From contig JAKBRJ010000031.1 of the NCBI GenBank assembly GCA_021834785.1, positions 1 to 6,785 of the forward strand: a stretch of DNA of 6,785 bases, written 5' to 3'. This document shows, in pieces, positions 1-6,785 of this stretch. Position numbers and translations under genes: made by a program. A model generated the notes under the pieces. It did no database searches, was not told where the DNA came from, and saw only the letters and a program-made list of their open reading frames with translations. Within the stretch, counting starts at the first letter, position 1. Each line of letters starts with the position of its first letter. This stretch comes from Microcaldota archaeon. Its GTDB lineage: Archaea > Micrarchaeota > Micrarchaeia > Micrarchaeales > Micrarchaeaceae.

Positions 1-112
1 TTTCAGGGTATGGATTAACTCCTTGTGACCTAATGCCTTCAAGCTTCTTCATCCGTTCCGAATCAACCATATATTCTCCCATCCAACTATGGCTTATACC
101 GAGTGTTCTCAT
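1..112 (-). CDS. lysS: N-terminus of probable class II lysyl-tRNA synthetase (partial)
   Basis: The first 37 codons lie in the window and the rest runs off the left edge. The stretch MKKLEGIRSQGVNPYP has the helix-then-'NPYP' pattern that opens class II LysRS, just before the anticodon-binding OB fold. The family charges tRNA-Lys with lysine in the cytoplasm. I chose the ATG at 112 because a TATATATA box about 27 bases upstream predicts a transcript start only a few bases before it, so the mRNA would be nearly leaderless. Inner Met codons at residues 11, 15 and 21 are alternatives, and Met15 would give a more typical LysRS N-terminus. The gene is transcribed away from the peptide/radical SAM unit and looks like an unrelated housekeeping neighbour. 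The catalytic domain is not visible, so another OB-fold class II synthetase remains possible. Confidence 0.6.
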   Translation of the reverse strand, partial: MRTLGISHSWMGEYMVDSERMKKLEGIRSQGVNPYPE

Positions 113-137
113 CTCTCATTAAATATTCCCTATCATA

Positions 138-293
138 CTATATATACTTGCTGTAATCTTTCTCTATTACATGCGAGTTGTCTCTCATAGCTAGCTCATA
201 GATGTAATATGCGCTTATGCTTTTCTCTCCGTTTTTTACAAACGCTATAAGGTTCTTGTATCTTATGATTTTTCCGGCAATCGCACTTATTCT
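138..293 (-). pseudogene. Possible C-terminal remnant of a broken gene
   Basis: An open frame of 51 sense codons runs between a TAA (294-296) and a TAG (138-140) on the minus strand. It has no ATG until residue 36, so it cannot be a normal gene in full. The text reads like protein: a basic/hydrophobic start (IAGKIIRYKNLIAFVKNGEK), then a helix-like stretch (SAYYIYELAMRDN) and a charged tail. I do not recognise the family. It is cut off exactly where one copy of the flanking 9-bp repeat (295-303) lies, so it could be the tail of a gene disrupted when the low-GC block arrived. It may equally be a chance open frame, since 51 codons is short. Confidence 0.25.
139..146 (-). promoter_or_regulatory. 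TATA box of the lysS-like gene
   Basis: TATATATA (same on both strands), centred about 27 bases before the predicted transcript start near 116 on the minus strand. The start codon at 112 would then have a leader of only about 4 bases. The stop codon of the possible coding remnant to its right (138-140) overlaps this box. Confidence 0.5.
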
Positions 294-294
294 T

Positions 295-303
295 TACGAG
301 AAA
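295..303 (+). repeat. Left copy of 9-bp direct repeat TACGAGAAA
   Basis: TACGAGAAA occurs here and again at 5103-5111, in the same orientation. The two copies bracket the peptide/radical SAM/LeuRS-like block almost exactly. It may be a target-site or attachment duplication, or a shared regulator site: this copy lies about 30 bases upstream of the TATA box of the peptide promoter. A related CGAGAG follows at 312-317. Nine bases is short enough for chance. Confidence 0.3.
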
Positions 304-333
304 GACAGAGTCGAGAGCAAAGCCAGCAATACC

Positions 334-341
334 TTTAAATA
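334..341 (+). promoter_or_regulatory. TATA box for the peptide/radical SAM operon
   Basis: TTTAAATA is a near-ideal archaeal TATA box. Its centre is about 24 bases before the ATG at 361, so transcription should begin at about 361-364. The peptide would be translated from a leaderless message at 361, or from the ATG at 373 with a very short leader. No strong SD precedes 361, which fits leaderless use. Confidence 0.65.
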
Positions 342-360
342 TCTAATATAAGAAGATTAA

Positions 361-492
361 ATGGGGATAGAAATGAAGGAAATAAAATTGGAAGACTTGA
401 AAATAAAGGTTTCAGAGGATAAGAAGAAGGTAGAAAAAGAGATAAAAATAGACGAAGATATGATTTGCTTACAATGCTGGCCAGATGCATAA
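361..492 (+). CDS. Putative RiPP precursor peptide, 43 aa, C-terminal core MICLQCWPDA
   Basis: A small gene directly after a good TATA box and 24 bases before two radical SAM/SPASM enzymes. Residues 1 to about 33 form a charged, helix-prone leader: MGIEMKEIKLEDLKIKV, then a Lys/Glu/Asp-rich part ending KIDED. The last 10 residues, MICLQCWPDA, hold the only Cys (36, 39) and Trp (40). A charged leader with a short Cys- or Trp-bearing tail next to SPASM enzymes is the usual layout of radical-SAM-modified peptides (sactipeptides, ranthipeptides, PqqA and MftA types). Likely reactions at this tail are thioether or Trp-centred crosslinks, but this is inference. The start may be 361 (leaderless) or 373, giving 39 residues. 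The frame matches the next gene and no stop lies between them apart from its own TAA. I recognise no named family; it could instead be a small metal-binding CxxC peptide. Confidence 0.72.
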   Translation: MGIEMKEIKLEDLKIKVSEDKKKVEKEIKIDEDMICLQCWPDA

Positions 493-516
493 ATCTCGGA
501 CAGAATAGAAATCCAT

Positions 517-1551
517 GTGGATATAATGATTGCCCCAAAGTTAATATCTGTAGAATGGGATTTGTCTTACTTATGTAATTTTTCTTGCATACATTGTCGT
601 AATGCCACTTCTCAAGGAAAATACCTAGACAAAAATATCTATATAGATATTATAAAGCGTATTGCAGAATTAAAGCCTGAATTTTTAACCATAGGTGGGG
701 GAGAACCCCTTTTATACCCAAACTTAGCTGAATTAATTTTAGAAGCACATAATTTAGGCATTAAACCAAGAGTTCTTTCTAATGGTTGGCTTATTAATAA
801 GGAACTGGTTAAAAAATTAGTTGATGGTGGGGTGTGGGGCATCTCAATAAGTCTAGATGGCGCTAAGGCCGAAACGCATGATAGAATAAGGGGTGTAAAG
901 GGATCATACGATAGAGTAATAAATGCATTAAAATTACTAGTAAGTATGGGTGTAAATTGTCCCGTAAGTATGACAGTTAATGCAATCAATATCAATGATA
1001 TTGAGCAGGAGGCAGAGCTATGCTATAATCTAGGTGTCAAAAATTTTGGAATAAGACCCATGCTACCATCTGGTAGGGGATTAAAAGTTTATTATGACCT
1101 GAAAATAGAGGAATATAAAGATATCTTTACTAGGACCCATAAATTAAAACAGCTATATAAAGGTAAAATAAATGTTAGCTCTGGCGATCCCTTATATAAT
1201 ACTATAGATTTGAAGTACCTCAGAAATGCAGAGCAAGTAGATTTTAAATTGTTGGGTGGCTGCGACATAGGTTTATCTATGATTAGAATAGATCCTGATG
1301 GCAACATTGGTTTATGCCCCCTTATACAAGATATTAAACTTGGCAATATATTTAATGATAACATAAAATCACTCTGGGAAAATAACGAAATACTCAATGC
1401 CTTTCGTACACGCGAAGTCTTGACTGGAGCGTGTAAAGACTGTAGATATAAATATATTTGTGGCGGTTGCAGAGCAAGAGCATTAACCTTTGGTGATATT
1501 CAAGGAAATGATCCGGTGTGCTGGCGTTCCGAAAAATCTAAAGCAGTATAA
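517..1551 (+). CDS. Radical SAM/SPASM peptide-modifying enzyme (first of a tandem pair)
   Basis: 344 residues. The radical SAM core begins with C20-x3-C24-x2-C27 (LCNFSCIHC), which binds the [4Fe-4S] cluster that cleaves S-adenosylmethionine, followed by GGGEP at 60-64. The C-terminus is a full SPASM domain with seven Cys: C249, C267, then C306-x2-C309-x5-C315-x2-C318 and C335. This is enough for two auxiliary clusters, as in PqqE, MftC, AhbC/D and sactisynthases. The RPMLPSGRG segment before SPASM is typical of this group. No N-terminal PqqD-like recognition domain is present. Its place right after the small peptide gene suggests it modifies that peptide. The start is GTG 517 or, three codons on, ATG 526; neither has a strong SD. 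The closest alternative is a haem- or tungsten-cofactor maturase of the same superfamily. Specificity cannot be read from sequence. Confidence 0.88.
   Translation: MDIMIAPKLISVEWDLSYLCNFSCIHCRNATSQGKYLDKNIYIDIIKRIAELKPEFLTIGGGEPLLYPNLAELILEAHNLGIKPRVLSNGWLINKELVKKLVDGGVWGISISLDGAKAETHDRIRGVKGSYDRVINALKLLVSMGVNCPVSMTVNAININDIEQEAELCYNLGVKNFGIRPMLPSGRGLKVYYDLKIEEYKDIFTRTHKLKQLYKGKINVSSGDPLYNTIDLKYLRNAEQVDFKLLGGCDIGLSMIRIDPDGNIGLCPLIQDIKLGNIFNDNIKSLWENNEILNAFRTREVLTGACKDCRYKYICGGCRARALTFGDIQGNDPVCWRSEKSKAV
1457..1476 (+). repeat. 20-nt exact match shared by both SPASM domains (copy 1)
   Basis: The 20 bases coding for the CGGCRA part of the SPASM domain are identical to 2485-2504 in the second enzyme, although most of the rest of the two genes has diverged. 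It reflects common descent under strong constraint, or local gene conversion. Confidence 0.7.
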
Positions 1552-1572
1552 ATGTCGAGAGTGATTCAATAA
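1552..1572 (+). other. Six-codon mini-frame (MSRVIQ) at the start of the second radical SAM gene
   Basis: An ATG directly abuts the TAA of the first radical SAM gene, ideal for translational coupling, but its frame stops after six codons at TAA 1570-1572. The frame of the second enzyme is open from 1542 yet has no ATG or GTG. A one-base loss here, or a -1 ribosomal shift, would join this ATG to the enzyme. No classical slippery heptamer is visible. Confidence 0.4.
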
Positions 1573-1595
1573 CAATATCGCAAAAGATAATATTA

Positions 1596-2567
1596 TTGGA
1601 AGTAACTAATCATTGCAACCTAAATTGCCTTTTTTGTAGAGCTGAAGCTAACAAACATTTAGAGAATGAATTAAAATTTAGCGAAATCACCGAGTTATTA
1701 AAGGATTTGAAGGATTTGGGAGCAAAACATATTTCTATAACTGGCGGCGAACCCCTGATGCGTAAAGATCTGAAAGATATTGTACAAACAATTATGGCCT
1801 TGGGTTTCGAATCGAGTATTTCAACAAATGGCACTCTAATTTCACCTTCAAATATCGACTGGCTTAAGAAATTAAAACTTGTGCGTATTAGTTTGGATAG
1901 CGCAGATCCTGCAAAACATGATGCAATAAGAGGAGGTATAAAAGGCGCTTTTTATAAGACTCTAACCAATATCAAATTACTCTTAGAGAATAAAATAAAT
2001 GTCGCTATACGTTTTACGCTTATTCCGCAAAACATAAACGAATTACCACAAATAATAGAACTTGTTCATGATTTAGGAATGCAATCATTATCTTTAAGTA
2101 GGGGCATACCTATTCTCGGTGGGAAAAAATTTGAAATGCTTTCCCCCAAGGAATACGCAGATGCATTAAGGCATTCCTTAGAACTCGGACAAAGATACGG
2201 CATCGAGATAACTTCTGAAGACCCTGTAACATTCTATATCTTCAAAAAGGATTTAGTTGATAATAATACGGGCAATCTTTTTGGGGGTTGTGCTGCTGGA
2301 ATTTCGTATATCCATATAAATTCTAGGGGAGACGTATTTCCATGCCCATATTTACCCATAAAAGTAGGTTCGATAAAGGAAGAAAAGATAGGAGACTTAA
2401 TCAAAAATCAGAAAGTTACTGAAAAATTCTATAACATTCGGTTTAATCTTGAAGGAAAATGCAAATCATGTAAGTATCTTAATGTTTGTGGCGGTTGCAG
2501 AGCATCTGCTTTATCTTTTACTGGTAATATCCAAGGTTCCGATCCAGTCTGCTTACTCGGGTCATAA
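1596..2567 (+). CDS. Second radical SAM/SPASM enzyme of the tandem pair (start uncertain)
   Basis: Numbered from TTG 1596 it has 323 residues: C7-x3-C11-x2-C14 (HCNLNCLFC) for the SAM-cleaving cluster, GGEP at 50-53, and a SPASM domain with C232, C250, C289-x2-C292-x5-C298-x2-C301 and C319. The ending CGGCRAS...GSDPVC closely matches the first enzyme's CGGCRAR...GNDPVC, so the two are paralogues, probably acting in turn on the same peptide. TTG 1596 is the only conventional start in frame, but it cuts the first barrel strand. Upstream the frame reads ISQKIILLE, which looks like genuine protein. An AUA start at 1575 (giving MSQKIILLEVTNHCN) with GTGAT nine bases before it is attractive. A one-base error downstream of ATG 1552 is the other option. 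If TTG is real the N-terminus is unusually short. Function rests on family membership; the partner peptide is inferred from context. Confidence 0.85.
   Translation: MEVTNHCNLNCLFCRAEANKHLENELKFSEITELLKDLKDLGAKHISITGGEPLMRKDLKDIVQTIMALGFESSISTNGTLISPSNIDWLKKLKLVRISLDSADPAKHDAIRGGIKGAFYKTLTNIKLLLENKINVAIRFTLIPQNINELPQIIELVHDLGMQSLSLSRGIPILGGKKFEMLSPKEYADALRHSLELGQRYGIEITSEDPVTFYIFKKDLVDNNTGNLFGGCAAGISYIHINSRGDVFPCPYLPIKVGSIKEEKIGDLIKNQKVTEKFYNIRFNLEGKCKSCKYLNVCGGCRASALSFTGNIQGSDPVCLLGS
2485..2504 (+). repeat. 20-nt exact match shared by both SPASM domains (copy 2)
   Basis: Second copy of the identical tract in 1457-1476, lying in the same reading frame and at the same place in the SPASM domain (CGGCRA). 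Confidence 0.7.
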
Positions 2568-2580
2568 CTAATAATATTAC

Positions 2581-2592
2581 TATATATATTTA
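2581..2592 (+). promoter_or_regulatory. TATA box of the LeuRS-like gene
   Basis: TATATATATTTA lies just past the stop of the second radical SAM gene. It predicts a start of transcription near 2612 and a leader of about 20 bases that contains the SD at 2621. The LeuRS-like gene could therefore be transcribed on its own as well as by read-through. Confidence 0.55.
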
Positions 2593-2620
2593 ACCCAGTA
2601 ATAGCTTGCATTGACATACA

Positions 2621-2625
2621 GAGGT
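2621..2625 (+). promoter_or_regulatory. Shine-Dalgarno site of the LeuRS-like gene
   Basis: GAGGT, seven bases before ATG 2633. This is a good match to the archaeal anti-SD and it settles the start. It contrasts with the leaderless peptide gene upstream. Confidence 0.7.
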
Positions 2626-2632
2626 TATTAAA

Positions 2633-5029
2633 ATGAATGATAAAAGTTTTTATCTGATATTTGCATATCCGACTACCTCTGGGGCTCTTCATGTAGGGCA
2701 TATAAGATCTTACACTCTACCTGACATTATAGCTAAATACCATCTTTCCAAAGGCGAAAACATCTTCTTTCCGGTGGGATTTCATGCTACCGGTTCAGAT
2801 GCAATAAAGATATTCAATGCAATTAAAGCGGATCCGGATAAAGCAGAAAGCTATGGTATACCAAGGGATAGCGTATATAAAATAAATGAACCTGCAGATG
2901 TTGTTAAGGTTCTTGCCTCATCATATATCGACCTCTTTAAAGAGGCCGGCTTTTCATTGAATTACGATGCCGCTATCTCAACTATAAATCCTGCGTACAG
3001 CAAGGTAATAGAATGGCAGTTCAGAAAATTGCATAGGTTAGGGTATCTAATCCAGAAAGATTATCAGTTGCCATGGTGCCCTAATGAGAATCAGCCCGTA
3101 CACTTGGACGCATCTGAATCAGACATAGCTAGTTTCAAAGGCAACAAGGTAATAAAGTACGATCTGGTGCTATTTGAAGGAGATTTACCGTTTGTGGGGT
3201 ATACCACTGATTTAAGCAATCTTCTTGGTCCTATAACCCTAGAAATAAATTCAAAAGAAAAATATGCAGAAGCAATTATAGATAGTAAAAAAGTAGTAAT
3301 ATCGGAAAAGGCCATAGGGAAGCTCCTTAATCTAGATAGGGATATAAAGAAGATAAGGGATGTGGTAATTAGTGGCAAAGATAACCTGAAAATCCTGAAT
3401 CCAATAACTCACGAACGCGTTGTAATAAGAGAAACGCCGTTCGAGGTAGCGGATGGAACGGATATCAGAATTATTGTAGATGCAGAAACCGAGGAAAGTA
3501 AAAAACATCATAATATCACAGCCGGCAAGGAAGTTTACAAAAAATTAGAAGCAAGCAACAGAATAGACATTATGCAAGAGCTATCTGCAAAGCCGGTATA
3601 TTGCAGATGCGGTGCAGAGGTAATAGTGAAAACGATAAAGAATCAGTGGTTTATAGACTATAGTAATAATAACTGGAAAGAATCTGCAAAAAAGCTCGTC
3701 AACAATATCTCGACCTTTCCCAACAGTTATAAAGACGAGCTTTACGGGATAATTGATTGGTTAGGGCCCAGGCCATGCGTTAGAAGAACTGGCTTGGGAA
3801 CCAAATTCCCATTTGAAGACGGCTGGATTATCGAGGCACTATCAGATTCAAATATATACATGGCAATATACATAATTGCTGAAGCAGTAAATTCCGGCAA
3901 AATCAGTGTCAATTCCATATCCGACGAGCTGCTTGATTATGTGTTCTTAGGTTCTGGGGAGATAAGTGAAGTCAGTTATGCTACAGGCATAAGCACAGAT
4001 GCAATAAAGGTCTTGAGAGAGAGATTCGAAAGCACATATCCACTGGATGTAAACTTTGGTGGCGTGGAACACAAATCTGTCCATTTCCCATTTTTCATAT
4101 TTAATCATGCAGCGATATTCCCAGAAAAGTACTGGCCCAAGGCGATTTTCCTAAACTGGCATGTGATAATCAACGGGGAAAAGATGAGCAAGCACCTAGG
4201 CAACTATGTGTCATGGAATGATGCACTGAATAAATACGGTACCGACGCGGTGCGGCTGTATATTGCCTCTGGTGCAGAGCAATGGAGCACATTTAATTGG
4301 AGTAACCAGGTAGCAGAGGAGACAAAGACTAGACTAGCTGAGTTTATCAATCAAACCAGGAGGCTAATAAAATTATCTACAGACTTAAATTTAGCGGGAG
4401 ATAACGAGACAATTTTTGACCGGTGGCTTTTGTCTAAATTAAATTCAACAATACAGGGCGTAACAGCACACCTGGAGAAGTATGAGATACGATCCGCAAT
4501 ACTGGAAGCATTATATGATGTAGATAGTTATCTAAACTCTTACCTATCTTATAATAAAATTAACGGTAAGGTATTGCAAGTGGTCATAGAGAAACAGTTG
4601 GCCATGACCTATTCATTCATTCCAAACACGTCAATAGAGCTGTTAAGAGATTTAGGCGTTGACAAAGCGCAGATAAAATGGCCCAACGTAGAGAAAGAGA
4701 GTATAAACAAAAAATTGGAGAACGTTTTCAACAGTTTAGACAATACTATAAAAGATTTGAACAGCATTAGAAAAATCAAAAATAAATATCAGGAAAATGA
4801 AAATAACATTTGTTATCTATATGTATCAACAGACGAAGAAAAAATTTTATATGAAGAAGCAAAAGAACGGTTGACAAAAAGTGTGGGGATAAAGGAAATC
4901 GTTGTATATAAAATTGGCGACAAAAACATTTATGACCCTGAAAATCGGGCTTCCCGTGCAAAACCATTTAAGCCTGCAATATTTATAACTGATTCGGATA
5001 AATACAAAACGGATCTCAGCAAAATATAA
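2633..5029 (+). CDS. Leucyl-tRNA synthetase paralogue with degenerate editing domain
   Basis: 798 residues, against roughly 930-970 for archaeal LeuRS. The order of domains is kept: HVGH (20-23), FHATGSD (50-56; FHVTGTP in ordinary enzymes), EWQFRKL (127-133), CRCG (324-327), WIIEALSDSNIYM (398-410), FFIFNHAAIF (487-496), KMSKH (517-521, normally KMSKS), then the anticodon-binding helices and a C-terminal domain ending NRASRAKPFKPAIFI (771-785). The loss is mostly in the CP1 editing insert (about 165-320). The Thr-rich 'TLRPET' site reads TTDLSNL (191-197), and the expected 'GVVMSVPAHAPFD' block is replaced by unrelated charged residues near 275-295. Proofreading is therefore probably absent. 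Amino-acid activation looks possible, while tRNA charging is uncertain. It follows the peptide and its modifying enzymes, so a role in attaching or supplying an amino acid is plausible. A resistant LeuRS copy or a non-catalytic paralogue, as reported in Sulfolobales, are alternatives. Its substrate cannot be read here. Confidence 0.88.
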   Translation: MNDKSFYLIFAYPTTSGALHVGHIRSYTLPDIIAKYHLSKGENIFFPVGFHATGSDAIKIFNAIKADPDKAESYGIPRDSVYKINEPADVVKVLASSYIDLFKEAGFSLNYDAAISTINPAYSKVIEWQFRKLHRLGYLIQKDYQLPWCPNENQPVHLDASESDIASFKGNKVIKYDLVLFEGDLPFVGYTTDLSNLLGPITLEINSKEKYAEAIIDSKKVVISEKAIGKLLNLDRDIKKIRDVVISGKDNLKILNPITHERVVIRETPFEVADGTDIRIIVDAETEESKKHHNITAGKEVYKKLEASNRIDIMQELSAKPVYCRCGAEVIVKTIKNQWFIDYSNNNWKESAKKLVNNISTFPNSYKDELYGIIDWLGPRPCVRRTGLGTKFPFEDGWIIEALSDSNIYMAIYIIAEAVNSGKISVNSISDELLDYVFLGSGEISEVSYATGISTDAIKVLRERFESTYPLDVNFGGVEHKSVHFPFFIFNHAAIFPEKYWPKAIFLNWHVIINGEKMSKHLGNYVSWNDALNKYGTDAVRLYIASGAEQWSTFNWSNQVAEETKTRLAEFINQTRRLIKLSTDLNLAGDNETIFDRWLLSKLNSTIQGVTAHLEKYEIRSAILEALYDVDSYLNSYLSYNKINGKVLQVVIEKQLAMTYSFIPNTSIELLRDLGVDKAQIKWPNVEKESINKKLENVFNSLDNTIKDLNSIRKIKNKYQENENNICYLYVSTDEEKILYEEAKERLTKSVGIKEIVVYKIGDKNIYDPENRASRAKPFKPAIFITDSDKYKTDLSKI

Positions 5030-5066
5030 GAATGAGCCTTTAATTATTATATCCTTAAATCTACTA

Positions 5067-5071
5067 TTTTT
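5067..5071 (+). terminator. T-run, likely transcript end after the LeuRS-like gene
   Basis: TTTTT lies about 38 bases after the stop codon, preceded by AT-rich DNA without a clear hairpin. Archaeal termination usually needs only a T-run, so this is a plausible but weak terminator. Confidence 0.35.
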
Positions 5072-5112
5072 CTCGATATATTTATACAAACCCCAATCGT
5101 CCTACGAGAAAA
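5068..5112. repeat. 8-bp inverted repeat around a TATA-like stretch
   Basis: TTTTCTCG (5068-5075) and CGAGAAAA (5105-5112) are exact inverse complements, 29 bases apart. Between them lies TATTTATA (5079-5086), which reads as a TATA-like box on either strand, best as GTATAAATATA on the minus strand. The right arm overlaps the 9-bp direct repeat. It may be a regulator site around a promoter or a boundary sequence. No clear gene starts just downstream on either strand. Confidence 0.35.
5103..5111 (+). repeat. Right copy of 9-bp direct repeat TACGAGAAA
   Basis: Matches 295-303 exactly in the same orientation, 74 bases beyond the LeuRS-like stop. Together the pair encloses the whole peptide/radical SAM/LeuRS-like unit. 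Confidence 0.3.
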
Positions 5113-5340
5113 CAATAATCCATCAAATCTTTCATGGCTTAATTTGTTCTTGTAGGGTATGTTTGTCATGCAAATTATATTTTAGATAAATACGCATCAG
5201 TCTTTTTGAACTAAACAACTTTCGCTTCTTCTTTGCTAACATCTGTCTCATAAACTTAATCTTATAGAGATAAGTTGCTATTATATGAGAATATGGTCGA
5301 TAAACCTCCTTTCGCAGGACTATCACACAAAGATGATAGG
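5113..5340. other. AT-rich gene-free stretch
   Basis: I see no convincing gene here. Plus-strand frames are a few codons long until a 38-codon frame at 5285-5401 (MRIWSINLLSQ...), which has no clear SD and runs through the next promoter. The minus strand has a Lys/Arg-rich frame near 5132-5260 (MRQMLAKKKRKLF...) of 40 codons from its inner ATG. Either could be a worn remnant of a lost gene, but neither matches a family I know. Confidence 0.4.
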
Positions 5341-5348
5341 TATAAATA
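5341..5348 (+). promoter_or_regulatory. TATA box of the methyltransferase gene
   Basis: TATAAATA predicts a transcript start near 5368-5372, which gives a leader of about 90 bases before ATG 5462. That is long compared with the leaderless or short-leader genes elsewhere in the window. Confidence 0.5.
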
Positions 5349-5369
5349 CTGCGGAACCAAATCAGATGT

Positions 5370-5460
5370 TTATTCCGTATCATGGCGGAATAGGGGCTTG
5401 AGAGAGGGTTAAGGACCCAGGATGAATTTGCATTCAGTCCAGCATAAAGGTGATCTAACA
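5370..5460 (+). promoter_or_regulatory. Hairpin-rich 5' leader of the methyltransferase mRNA
   Basis: Three stem-loops can be drawn by hand. One is TATTCCG (5371-5377) with CGGAATA (5386-5392), 7 bp and an 8-base loop. The second is GGGT (5406-5409) with ACCC (5415-5418). The third is GGATGAAT (5420-5427) with ATTCAGTCC (5432-5440), 8 bp with one bulged G and a TTGC loop. A strong SD (GGTGATCT, 5449-5456) follows, five bases before ATG 5462. A weaker fold pairs ATCT (5453-5456) with AGAT (5460-5463), which would cover part of the SD and the start codon. The leader may control translation or be a separate small RNA; it matches no riboswitch I recognise. Confidence 0.4.
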
Positions 5461-5461
5461 G

Positions 5462-6319
5462 ATGCCGGTAAAGAGTAACTATGTTGTATCTGGTTATCAT
5501 ATAGAAGAGCTGGTAAGACACAGCCAAGGCAGTATAAGGATCAGCCTAGACCTCGGGTTAAACCACACCTATGTTACCAAGTCCGATCAGGGTGTACGCC
5601 TTCCCGATGGCCAGATCATAAAACTGGACGACCTTGATAGGGTGTTAAAGAGACGGCACTCAGAGGACTGTTTCTTATTGGAAGATGGTTCACCTCTGCA
5701 TCTCTACCTCTTTGAGAATAATCAGACCTACAAACTCTATGAACCGCACATCGATTGGCCGCCAACTCTACTGATAAACGGGGGTAGCGTCATGCATACG
5801 GTCTCAGTCTCAAAGCCTACGGACGAGGCCGGTATGAAGGTAAGGGCTCTTGGCAACGTATCTGGAAATATTCTTGACTGCTGCTTCGGCCTGGGCTACA
5901 CCGCAATAGAGCTTGCAAAGCGCGGTGCGAATAATGTTCATACATGCGAGATATCCTCCAGTGTCATCGAGATTGCAAAGGTGAACCCATGGTCTCAAAA
6001 GGCATTCTCTAACAAGAGAATATCGCTTCAGAATGCGGATATCGCAGAAACGATAAGCGGCGTTGAGAGTGGCTACTACGATGCGATACTCCACGATCCA
6101 CCAAATCTGAAGATATCCGGCAATCTCTATTCGCGCAGCTTCTACGACCAACTCTACAGGGTACTCAAGAGCGGCGGTGTTCTCTACCACTTTGTTGGAG
6201 GCGGGAGAACTCCGAGGGAGTACAAGGTTGACTATACGAAAGGGGTTACGAAGAGATTATCTGAAGCCGGCTTCAGAGTCCATAAAAGCTATAGGGGGGT
6301 TCTGGCAGTCAAAGCCTGA
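5462..6319 (+). CDS. COG2521-type archaeal class I SAM-dependent methyltransferase
   Basis: 285 residues. An archaea-specific N-terminal part of about 105 residues precedes a Rossmann methyltransferase fold. Motif I is ILDCCFGLGYT (137-147), the acidic residue after strand 2 is E163, NPWS lies at 175-178, and DAILHDPP (207-214) is the motif IV site that usually holds the methyl acceptor. YSRSFYDQLYRVLKSGG (223-239) matches the family closely. 'LDxCxGLGYTA' with 'NPW' and 'HDPP' is the signature of the predicted archaeal methyltransferases in COG2521. The D-P-P site suggests transfer to a nitrogen on RNA, DNA or protein, but the substrate is not known to me. The start is fixed by a strong SD. 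It is more GC-rich than the genes to its left and has its own promoter, so it is probably not part of the peptide system. It ends in TGA followed at once by TAA. Confidence 0.82.
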   Translation: MPVKSNYVVSGYHIEELVRHSQGSIRISLDLGLNHTYVTKSDQGVRLPDGQIIKLDDLDRVLKRRHSEDCFLLEDGSPLHLYLFENNQTYKLYEPHIDWPPTLLINGGSVMHTVSVSKPTDEAGMKVRALGNVSGNILDCCFGLGYTAIELAKRGANNVHTCEISSSVIEIAKVNPWSQKAFSNKRISLQNADIAETISGVESGYYDAILHDPPNLKISGNLYSRSFYDQLYRVLKSGGVLYHFVGGGRTPREYKVDYTKGVTKRLSEAGFRVHKSYRGVLAVKA

Positions 6320-6362
6320 TAAGAATAGGAGTAAATCCCGCACCAACTACTCTATCAAGAGC

Positions 6363-6521
6363 TCATTTAGCGTAATACAGGAAATGGTTAGCTATCAGTA
6401 TTACTATCGCAAACGCGGTTATTCCGATAAGTACAAACTTGGGATTTATCTTAGGTCCCTTAGACGGGGCATCGTAAAAGCTCAGGACACCTGCCTGCGA
6501 TTGCGGTGAATATAACGCCAT
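6363..6521 (-). CDS. secG: Preprotein translocase subunit SecG / Sec61-beta
   Basis: 52 residues. A short polar N-terminus with the pattern AGVLSFYDAPSKGPKINPKFV (residues 10-30) leads into one membrane span at about 30-50 (LIGITAFAIVILIANHFLYY). This is the layout of archaeal Sec61-beta, the small tail-anchored partner of SecY and SecE in the protein-conducting channel. The 'KGPKINPKFV' box before the span is the family's most conserved part. It lies 31 bases downstream of the isomerase stop on the same strand and converges with the methyltransferase gene, 43 bases between stop codons. It has its own TATA-like box, so the transcript would be almost leaderless. The gene is short enough to be missed by many gene finders. 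Confidence 0.88.
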   Translation of the reverse strand: MALYSPQSQAGVLSFYDAPSKGPKINPKFVLIGITAFAIVILIANHFLYYAK

Positions 6522-6548
6522 AAATATCAATAATCTATTGTAAACAAT

Positions 6549-6557
6549 CTATTTATT
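6549..6557 (-). promoter_or_regulatory. TATA-like box of secG
   Basis: AATAAATAG on the minus strand overlaps the stop codon of the isomerase gene and is centred about 32 bases before the ATG at 6521. It predicts a leader of about six bases. Confidence 0.45.
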
Positions 6558-6785
6558 CATTTCTGTATCTGTTCGAATTGGAGCTCTTGTAAAAATCTAT
6601 GACCCTGTCTATGGCTATAGGGAACCAGGCGGTGTAGCTCTTCGGGTTCTCCCTCACATCGCGCTCCAGATTCTCAAGCCTGATCCACTTGAAAGATTCG
6701 ACCTCCGCAGGATCCGGCGATATACTCCCATCATAATCTCCAACTATGACATGGTCGTACTCGTGCTCCTTAAGCCCCTTATCCA
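6553..6785 (-). CDS. idi: Isopentenyl-diphosphate delta-isomerase, type I (Nudix), C-terminal part
   Basis: The last 76 residues are present; the N-terminus lies beyond the right edge. The fragment starts DKGLKEHEYDHVIVGDYDG, where EHEYDH holds the Glu residues that bind metal and catalyse proton transfer in type I enzymes. PDPAEVESFKW and YTAWFPIAIDRV follow in the family's usual order. The enzyme interconverts isopentenyl and dimethylallyl diphosphate, feeding archaeal isoprenoid lipids. The short Ser/Asn-rich tail ending NRYRNE is probably disordered. Many archaea use the unrelated type II enzyme, so a type I copy is mildly informative about lineage. The same strand carries secG next, and the two may be read together, although secG has its own promoter-like box. 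Confidence 0.82.
   Translation of the reverse strand, partial: DKGLKEHEYDHVIVGDYDGSISPDPAEVESFKWIRLENLERDVRENPKSYTAWFPIAIDRVIDFYKSSNSNRYRNE

Follow-up and report, generated by a model that had tools for sequence, protein, structure and literature searches.

A small peptide gene and two SPASM genes form a recurring unit beside a leucyl-tRNA synthetase paralogue in an archaeal contig

A gene for a small peptide, two genes for radical S-adenosylmethionine (SAM) enzymes with SPASM domains and a gene for a leucyl-tRNA synthetase (LeuRS)-like protein follow one another on the same strand of a contig assigned to a Microcaldota archaeon (JAKBRJ010000031.1 of assembly GCA_021834785.1). Do these four genes constitute one biosynthetic pathway? 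The stretch analysed, called the window below, comprises 6,785 bp (positions 1 - 6,785 of the contig). A sequence-only reading of the window had proposed that the peptide is crosslinked by the two SPASM enzymes and then extended or acylated with an amino acid activated by the LeuRS-like protein. All four open reading frames (ORFs) are present at the places given in that reading. The locus is, however, best read as two unrelated parts lying side by side: a unit consisting of the peptide and the SPASM enzymes S1 and S2 (positions 361 - 2567), and the LeuRS paralogue, LeuRS2 (2633 - 5029). With a probability of about 0.75, the first part is a compact operon of the type that produces ribosomally synthesized and post-translationally modified peptides (RiPPs), containing two divergent SPASM maturases, while LeuRS2 is a separate gene that has its own promoter and no demonstrated tie to the peptide. 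The earlier interpretation is partly supported: the peptide and the SPASM pair were recognized correctly, but the part concerning LeuRS is probably wrong.

The peptide and its recurrence beside SPASM genes

The peptide-S1-S2 unit recurs, in the same gene order, on contig L131 of genome G278, which belongs to another family of the same class as the window's genome. The S1 and S2 proteins of the two loci are 51% and 49% identical, respectively. This recurrence bears out the claim that a small peptide with a charged leader and a Cys/Cys/Trp tail is genetically tied to two SPASM enzymes. The second locus was reached through a search with S1 in 5.8 billion proteins, which returned P0001 (93% identical), P0002 (74%), P0003 (51%), P0004 (45%) and P0005 (44%), followed by a drop to 36%. 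P0003, which carries the name Nanoarchaeota archaeon in the database, was located in G278 among 279 genomes of the phylum, 16 of which matched at E <= 1e-30 with a next-best identity of 35%. The distribution of S1 is otherwise narrow. Every match in 55 genomes, 27 of them other members of the same genus, is at most 39% identical; in the family of G278 one of the seven genomes, G278 itself, has a match; and a search of a viral collection with an S1 profile (40 stretches) gave one distant locus (27%). P0004, of the S1 type, and P0129, of the S2 type, are each found on six contigs, the longest of 17,085 bp, from the same sources. Because of this agreement in contig number, longest contig and sources, they are likely to be a third S1-S2 pair, and would then share a single contig.

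The peptide ORF occupies positions 361 - 492 of the plus strand. The 43 residues originally assigned to it do exist as an ORF that opens at ATG 361, but translation probably begins at ATG 373 to give 39 residues, because the database copy, P0123, begins at the methionine of that codon and the L131 homologue also has 39 residues when counted from its MK start. Aligned from their MK starts, the two 39-residue peptides require no gap. Their leaders are identical at only 5 of 29 positions, whereas 5 of the last ten residues (C, C, W, P and D) are the same. The tail is MICLQCWPDA in the window and CMVCWPDD in L131, and the common pattern is C-x-x-C-W-P-D-x followed by a stop codon. The stretch I-C-L-Q-C-W-P-D-x of the window (positions 463 - 489) is the presumed core. 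Both cysteine codons (TGC/TGT in each case) and the proline codon (CCA/CCT) differ between the loci, so that conservation acts on the protein sequence of the tail; aspartate is encoded by GAT in both, and tryptophan has a single codon.

A profile built from the two peptides, in a search that requires shared five-residue words, retrieved four database proteins: the window's own peptide, close variants at 95% and 85%, and the G278 type. The variants listed beside P0123 are P0122, P0124 and P0125. All three close database peptides keep MICLQCWPD, and the residue after it is A, D or G. At the DNA level, the narrow pattern CLQCWPDA was found in none of 141 genomes, and the looser pattern CxxCWPDx-stop was used in its place. 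It occurs in 2 of 371 genomes of the phylum, once in G278, where it immediately precedes S1, and once in G100; this rarity speaks against a chance origin of the peptide ORF. The G100 match has no SPASM ORF in the surrounding 2,963 bp and was taken as chance. Among 166 sources, the CxxCWPDx tail is confined to the window, the loci from the G278 site and the G100 locus. A match of the peptide to DUF7900 was dropped, as its score of 18.8 lies below the Pfam cut-off of 27. The open-licence literature yielded no paper that combines CxxCW with radical SAM enzymes and a peptide, and none that combines radical SAM enzymes and a precursor peptide with Nanoarchaeota; among the matches listed for CWPD, all are unrelated by title. 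The peptide is best regarded as a probable member of a new RiPP-type precursor family, with two divergent SPASM enzymes as maturases.

A TATA-like box, TTTAAATA, can be read in the sequence at positions 334 - 341 (plus strand), 5' of the peptide, and the similar CTTTAAAAAC precedes the L131 peptide. The position of TTTAAATA is compatible with a very short 5' leader or none.

Six further S1-related loci, L132 - L137, were read in genomes G035, G161, G046 (two loci) and G081 (two loci). The CxxCWPD tail occurs in none of them. A tiny cysteine-containing peptide was judged to adjoin the SPASM gene in three of the six (L134, L135 and L136); the small ORFs of L132 and L133, and several of those in L134 - L136, were considered spurious by eye, and L137 gave none. 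A 25-residue peptide, MEKVLWQFSC[L/V]ACGGISG..., lies closely 3' of a single SPASM gene in two genomes, at L134 (contig C43 of G046) and at L136 (positions 2230 - 2304). It has a good ribosome-binding site and no NCBIfam match, and is possibly another small RiPP family. At L135 (contig C59 of G046), the SPASM gene begins directly where the ORF of a peptide of 60 - 66 residues, with the Cys-rich tail ECNTCKQCPGCGCMCNND, stops.

The two SPASM enzymes

S1 is encoded at positions 517 - 1551 of the plus strand, starting at GTG 517 or ATG 526, and S2 at about 1569 - 2567 of the same strand. Radical_SAM and SPASM domains score above the Pfam cut-offs in both proteins, confirming that they are two tandem radical SAM/SPASM enzymes. 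In a tree, S1 and S2 homologues fall into separate clades with support of 100/99 each (51 rows: 6 S1, 6 S2 and 39 other homologues chosen from the listed matches). One of the database searches with S2 used the protein from TTG 1596 and not from 1569.

The CX3CX2C motif and seven SPASM cysteines are invariant in the six aligned S1 and four aligned S2 sequences. The spacing of the SPASM cysteines, CX17C and CX2CX5CX2C, is the same as in AhbD. AhbD has an eighth, upstream cysteine, C223, and the first auxiliary cluster of CteB, which is held by three cysteines, leaves an open iron site (PMC10452713). The position of C223, matched by spacing only, is occupied by serine in all four S2 and in four of the six S1 sequences, and by cysteine in P0004 and P0005. 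Since this position is mostly serine, the first auxiliary cluster of S1 and S2 may be held by three cysteines.

The predicted structure of S1 (mean predicted local distance difference test score, pLDDT, 93.1) has no N-terminal recognition domain. In Foldseek it comes closest to two RiPP maturases, SkfB and SuiB, then to PqqE, with CteB (structure 5why), anSME and ChlB following.

In a quite different reading, S1 and S2 would work on a tetrapyrrole or another small molecule in the manner of AhbC/AhbD or NirJ, and the short ORF would be incidental or regulatory. Heme pathways do contain a pair of SPASM-type enzymes, AhbC and AhbD, and the best-ranked NCBIfam models for S1 and S2 include AhbD, NirJ2, TIGR04053 and GeoRSP. 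However, of the 80 and 108 NCBIfam matches of the two enzymes, the 25 best listed for each attain roughly half of their cut-off at most. For the AhbD model, TIGR04545, the scores are 180.7 and 197.3 bits and the cut-off is 500. HemC has no match in any of four genomes (G000, in which the window is placed, G278, G329 and G330; G000 and G278 are about 88% complete), and the tail of the peptide is conserved beside S1 in both loci. A heme-type role was rejected because the NCBIfam cut-offs are missed and HemC was not found in those four genomes, and the action of the pair on any such small molecule appears quite unlikely. The mycofactocin enzyme MftC is not matched at the level of its equivalog model either (TIGR03962; 135.3 and 104.5 bits, cut-off 265).

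LeuRS2 and the remainder of the window

LeuRS2 (positions 2633 - 5029, plus strand) has 798 residues and carries the Pfam domains tRNA-synt_1 and Anticodon_1. It remains below the NCBIfam cut-offs for archaeal LeuRS, with 496.8 against 648.5 bits for TIGR00395 and 604.6 against 677 bits for NF008957. A second LeuRS is encoded in G000 (a 907-residue frame on contig C2), as well as in G329 (956 residues) and G330 (955 residues). The missed cut-offs and the second LeuRS of G000 identify LeuRS2 as a paralogue, a shortened one, as had been recognized from the window alone. Its closest relatives are L063 from G329 (87% identical) and L064 from G330 (69%), and no LeuRS closer than 38% was found in any other of 55 genomes. 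The three proteins form a clade with support of 100/100 beside the LeuRS of two metagenome-assembled genomes, one of Bathyarchaeota and one of Aenigmatarchaeota, and the other LeuRS of G329 and G330 lie apart from this clade among rows named Micrarchaeota. The tree has 41 rows, 39 of them different, representing a chosen subset of loci without the canonical LeuRS of G000.

In alignments, LeuRS2 retains the catalytic motifs HVGH and KMSKH and its C-terminal end. The TRPET and VPAH-x-P-x-D motifs are lost or deleted, there is a large deletion in connective peptide 1 (CP1), and the C-terminal domain is shortened. Judged by these losses, LeuRS2 is editing-deficient; it probably still makes leucyl-adenylate.

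Is LeuRS2 part of the peptide pathway, adding an amino acid, perhaps from tRNA in the manner of the PEARL (peptide aminoacyl-tRNA ligase) systems, to the peptide? A gap of 65 bp separates its gene from that of S2, which has the same orientation, the loss of the editing core fits a non-translational role, and the catalytic motifs are in place. The relatives of LeuRS2, which lie in genomes of Micrarchaeota type, tell against this. By tblastn, S1 and S2 were found neither in L063, which offers 920 bp before the LeuRS gene and about 1.2 kb behind it, nor in L064, with about 6 kb on each side. L063 is a 4.5-kb contig on which a different gene, of 209 residues, lies just upstream of the LeuRS gene. 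An S1 profile found no S1-type gene in the draft genomes G329 and G330; G329 has a distant SPASM match (E 1.1e-25) and G330 none at E <= 1e-15. By blastn, positions 2581 - 5032 of the window correspond to positions 869 - 3320 of L063 at 87% identity. This block begins 14 bases past the stop codon of S2, at the promoter region of LeuRS2 itself; the promoter and ribosome-binding region, read by eye, spans positions 2581 - 2632 (plus strand). Conversely, the peptide-SPASM unit on the L131 contig is not accompanied by LeuRS2 (best tblastn E 4.5; the contig was the only part of G278 searched).

Composition also sets LeuRS2 apart. The GC content of third codon positions (GC3) is 0.27 in S1 and 0.29 in S2, but 0.38 in LeuRS2 (0.42 in L063 and 0.31 in L064). 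Since L063 and L064 lack SPASM genes, the shared block starts at the promoter of LeuRS2 and the L131 contig lacks LeuRS2, the gene is judged to lie outside the unit and is probably an unrelated neighbour of the peptide system. Its participation in the pathway is very unlikely. The search for peptide and SPASM genes beside the paralogue, suggested with the sequence-only reading, thus separates the two links on which that reading depended: the one between peptide and SPASM enzymes is upheld by L131, and the outcome goes against the one to LeuRS. The same loci give no conserved linkage of synthetase and peptide, as an extension of the PEARL type or otherwise dependent on an aminoacyl-tRNA synthetase would lead one to expect.

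Other synthetase-like ORFs lie near both loci. On L131, a gene assigned to MetRS by Pfam is located directly upstream of the peptide on the same strand, and an anticodon OB-fold ORF is found at the contig end; the coordinates of the two L131 ORFs are 5 - 367 and 9917 - 11311, both on the minus strand. An ORF cut by the left edge of the window (positions 2 - 112, minus strand) has no Pfam match and resembles, by eye, the N-terminus of a lysyl-tRNA synthetase. The neighbourhood of the MetRS gene could be counted in favour of a synthetase-dependent pathway, but these proximities are probably chance. Ten other ORFs of L131 comprise, by Pfam, a tRNA anticodon OB-fold, a flavin adenine dinucleotide (FAD) oxidoreductase, a glycosyltransferase, a weak FeoA, Fic, TFIIB, an AbiEii-like nucleotidyltransferase and the MetRS, as well as two without a match.

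The right part of the window contains a methyltransferase-like gene (5462 - 6319, plus strand) and a NUDIX-type ORF on the minus strand that is cut by the window edge. The methyltransferase gene has a GC3 of 0.55 and was matched in 2 of 33 genomes, G000 and G036 (38%), and in none of the 19 other genomes of the same genus in that search. The spread of GC3 and the lack of methyltransferase matches in these genomes indicate that the contig is a mosaic with an acquired island, or was misbinned; its host may be either a G000-type or a Micrarchaeota-type archaeon, both probably DPANN. Of this region, G000 has a single contig of 3,778 bp, which is 99.9% identical to positions 2028 - 5805 of the window, and the peptide-side part is absent.

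The presumed product and its relation to known systems

The genes, their conservation and order, the cluster motifs and the predicted SPASM fold of S1 are direct observations, and a scheme for maturation can be built on them. The last eight residues of the peptide, C-x-x-C-W-P-D-x, would be the core and the charged N-terminal part the leader, through which S1 and S2 would bind the peptide. S1 and then S2 would modify one and the same tail, with hydrogen abstraction by a 5'-deoxyadenosyl radical in both steps, to give a Cys-derived thioether or a Cys/Trp/Asp crosslink. The product would stay inside the cell or be cleaved by a housekeeping protease, and might serve as a small cofactor in redox reactions or metal binding, not as a toxin for secretion.

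The alternative to an intracellular product is a secreted, bacteriocin-like sactipeptide or ranthipeptide directed against neighbours. The closest folds to S1, SkfB and SuiB, and the sporadic distribution agree with such a function. RiPP clusters are predicted across archaea, including DPANN, with radical SAM-modified products among the abundant classes (PMC12144867), and this was also counted in its favour. However, Pfam scans of the neighbours in the window and L131 revealed no exporter or peptidase domain, and a conserved tail behind a variable leader does not resemble the pattern of an arms race that PMC3023750 sets out for bacteriocins. A bacteriocin-like function is unlikely; in the contrast of grammars drawn by Haft (PMC3023750), a conserved tail and the lack of an exporter favour a cofactor-like product. 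More specifically, S1 and S2 might link both cysteines to the aspartate and tryptophan, turning the CxxCWPD tail into a miniature thioether- or tryptophylquinone-like redox cofactor. This is a tentative idea, with the odds still against it. A precedent for such residues is found in quinohemoprotein amine dehydrogenase, which has a Cys/Trp/Asp crosslinked subunit.

Several points weigh against the RiPP-type reading. Peptide, S1 and S2 were read together as DNA in two loci only, the third pair being inferred, and no S1 partner could be named for P0127, an S2-type protein on a 12,374-bp contig. The GC3 of the peptide gene, 0.41, is unlike that of S1 and S2, though it is calculated from only 39 codons. 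S2 has no in-frame ATG or GTG start; the only candidate is TTG 1596, very near the CxxxCxxC motif, and S2 presumably starts there or at an unusual codon upstream. The fold matches of S1 also include enzymes from outside RiPP pathways, BlsE at rank 8 and DesII at rank 15, and the best NCBIfam matches include the tetrapyrrole enzymes AhbD and NirJ2, with scores that do not exceed half of the cut-off. The PqqD-type domain PF05402 is not fused to S1 or S2 and was found in none of the four genomes in which HemC was sought. Together with the Pfam scans, this agrees with the earlier statement that no protease, exporter or recognition domain is visible, and by the usual standards for RiPPs a pathway that lacks all three looks incomplete. 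Many RiPP systems, nonetheless, have no PqqD-like domain. The crosslinking chemistry is a proposal drawn from sequence, and the cofactor proposal leans on analogy.

The RiPP-type unit would represent a minimal system for peptide modification in archaea with very small genomes. Its core is conserved well enough to predict the reacting residues, and the length of its enzymes is suited to expression. A product of the cofactor type would, if confirmed, join pyrroloquinoline quinone (PQQ) and mycofactocin as a new cofactor made from a peptide. The comparison of the loci also removes an attractive but unsupported claim, that of a LeuRS-driven RiPP pathway.

One parallel in organization is mycofactocin. 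Its precursor, MftA, is described as short, with a divergent N-terminus and a nearly invariant stretch of the last eight residues, whose conservation is seen in the protein but not in the DNA (PMC3023750). The window's unit likewise has a short peptide with divergent leader and conserved end, maintained at the protein level, beside a SPASM enzyme. Unlike the mycofactocin system, it has another tail, two SPASM enzymes and no PqqD-type domain that could be found. The window has no glycosyltransferase or dehydrogenase, and the FAD oxidoreductase and glycosyltransferase of L131 are more than 5 kb from the unit. PQQ synthesis resembles the unit in pairing a small peptide, PqqA, with a SPASM enzyme, PqqE, the third kind of protein among the fold matches of S1. 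PqqA has Glu and Tyr where the window's tail has Cys, Trp and Asp, and no PqqD was found for the window's unit. By analogy, the conserved tail, the divergent leader and the lack of a recognized exporter or protease would recall the grammar of mycofactocin and PQQ more than that of bacteriocins.

SkfB, SuiB and CteB share the SPASM fold with S1 (template modeling score, TM, 0.69 - 0.80 over the S1 query), and their substrates, like the peptide, have a Cys-containing core. S1 and S2 differ from the sactipeptide and ranthipeptide maturases in lacking an N-terminal extension and in their association with a single two-Cys core containing Trp-Pro-Asp. A pair of radical SAM enzymes within a single system has a counterpart in ruminococcin C, with RumMC1 and RumMC2 (PMC8188230). 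AhbD and NirJ2 are among the best-scoring curated families, and AhbD shares the cysteine spacing of S1 and S2 (PMC10452713); S1 and S2 differ from both in scoring well below the cut-offs, in the lack of a HemC match in the four genomes searched and in their linkage to a peptide.

LeuRS2, finally, adds an editing-less paralogue to the duplicated LeuRS of archaea, such as LeuRS-I of Sulfolobaceae and LeuRS2 of haloarchaea. It matches a known puzzle in Sulfolobaceae, where the CP1 of LeuRS-I is disrupted, its C-terminal domain has diverged, and the enzyme forms leucyl-adenylate without aminoacylation (PMC9437257). The losses in the window's LeuRS2 resemble those of LeuRS-I, a resemblance that does not imply orthology; in the tree it lies in a separate clade with Micrarchaeota-named homologues.

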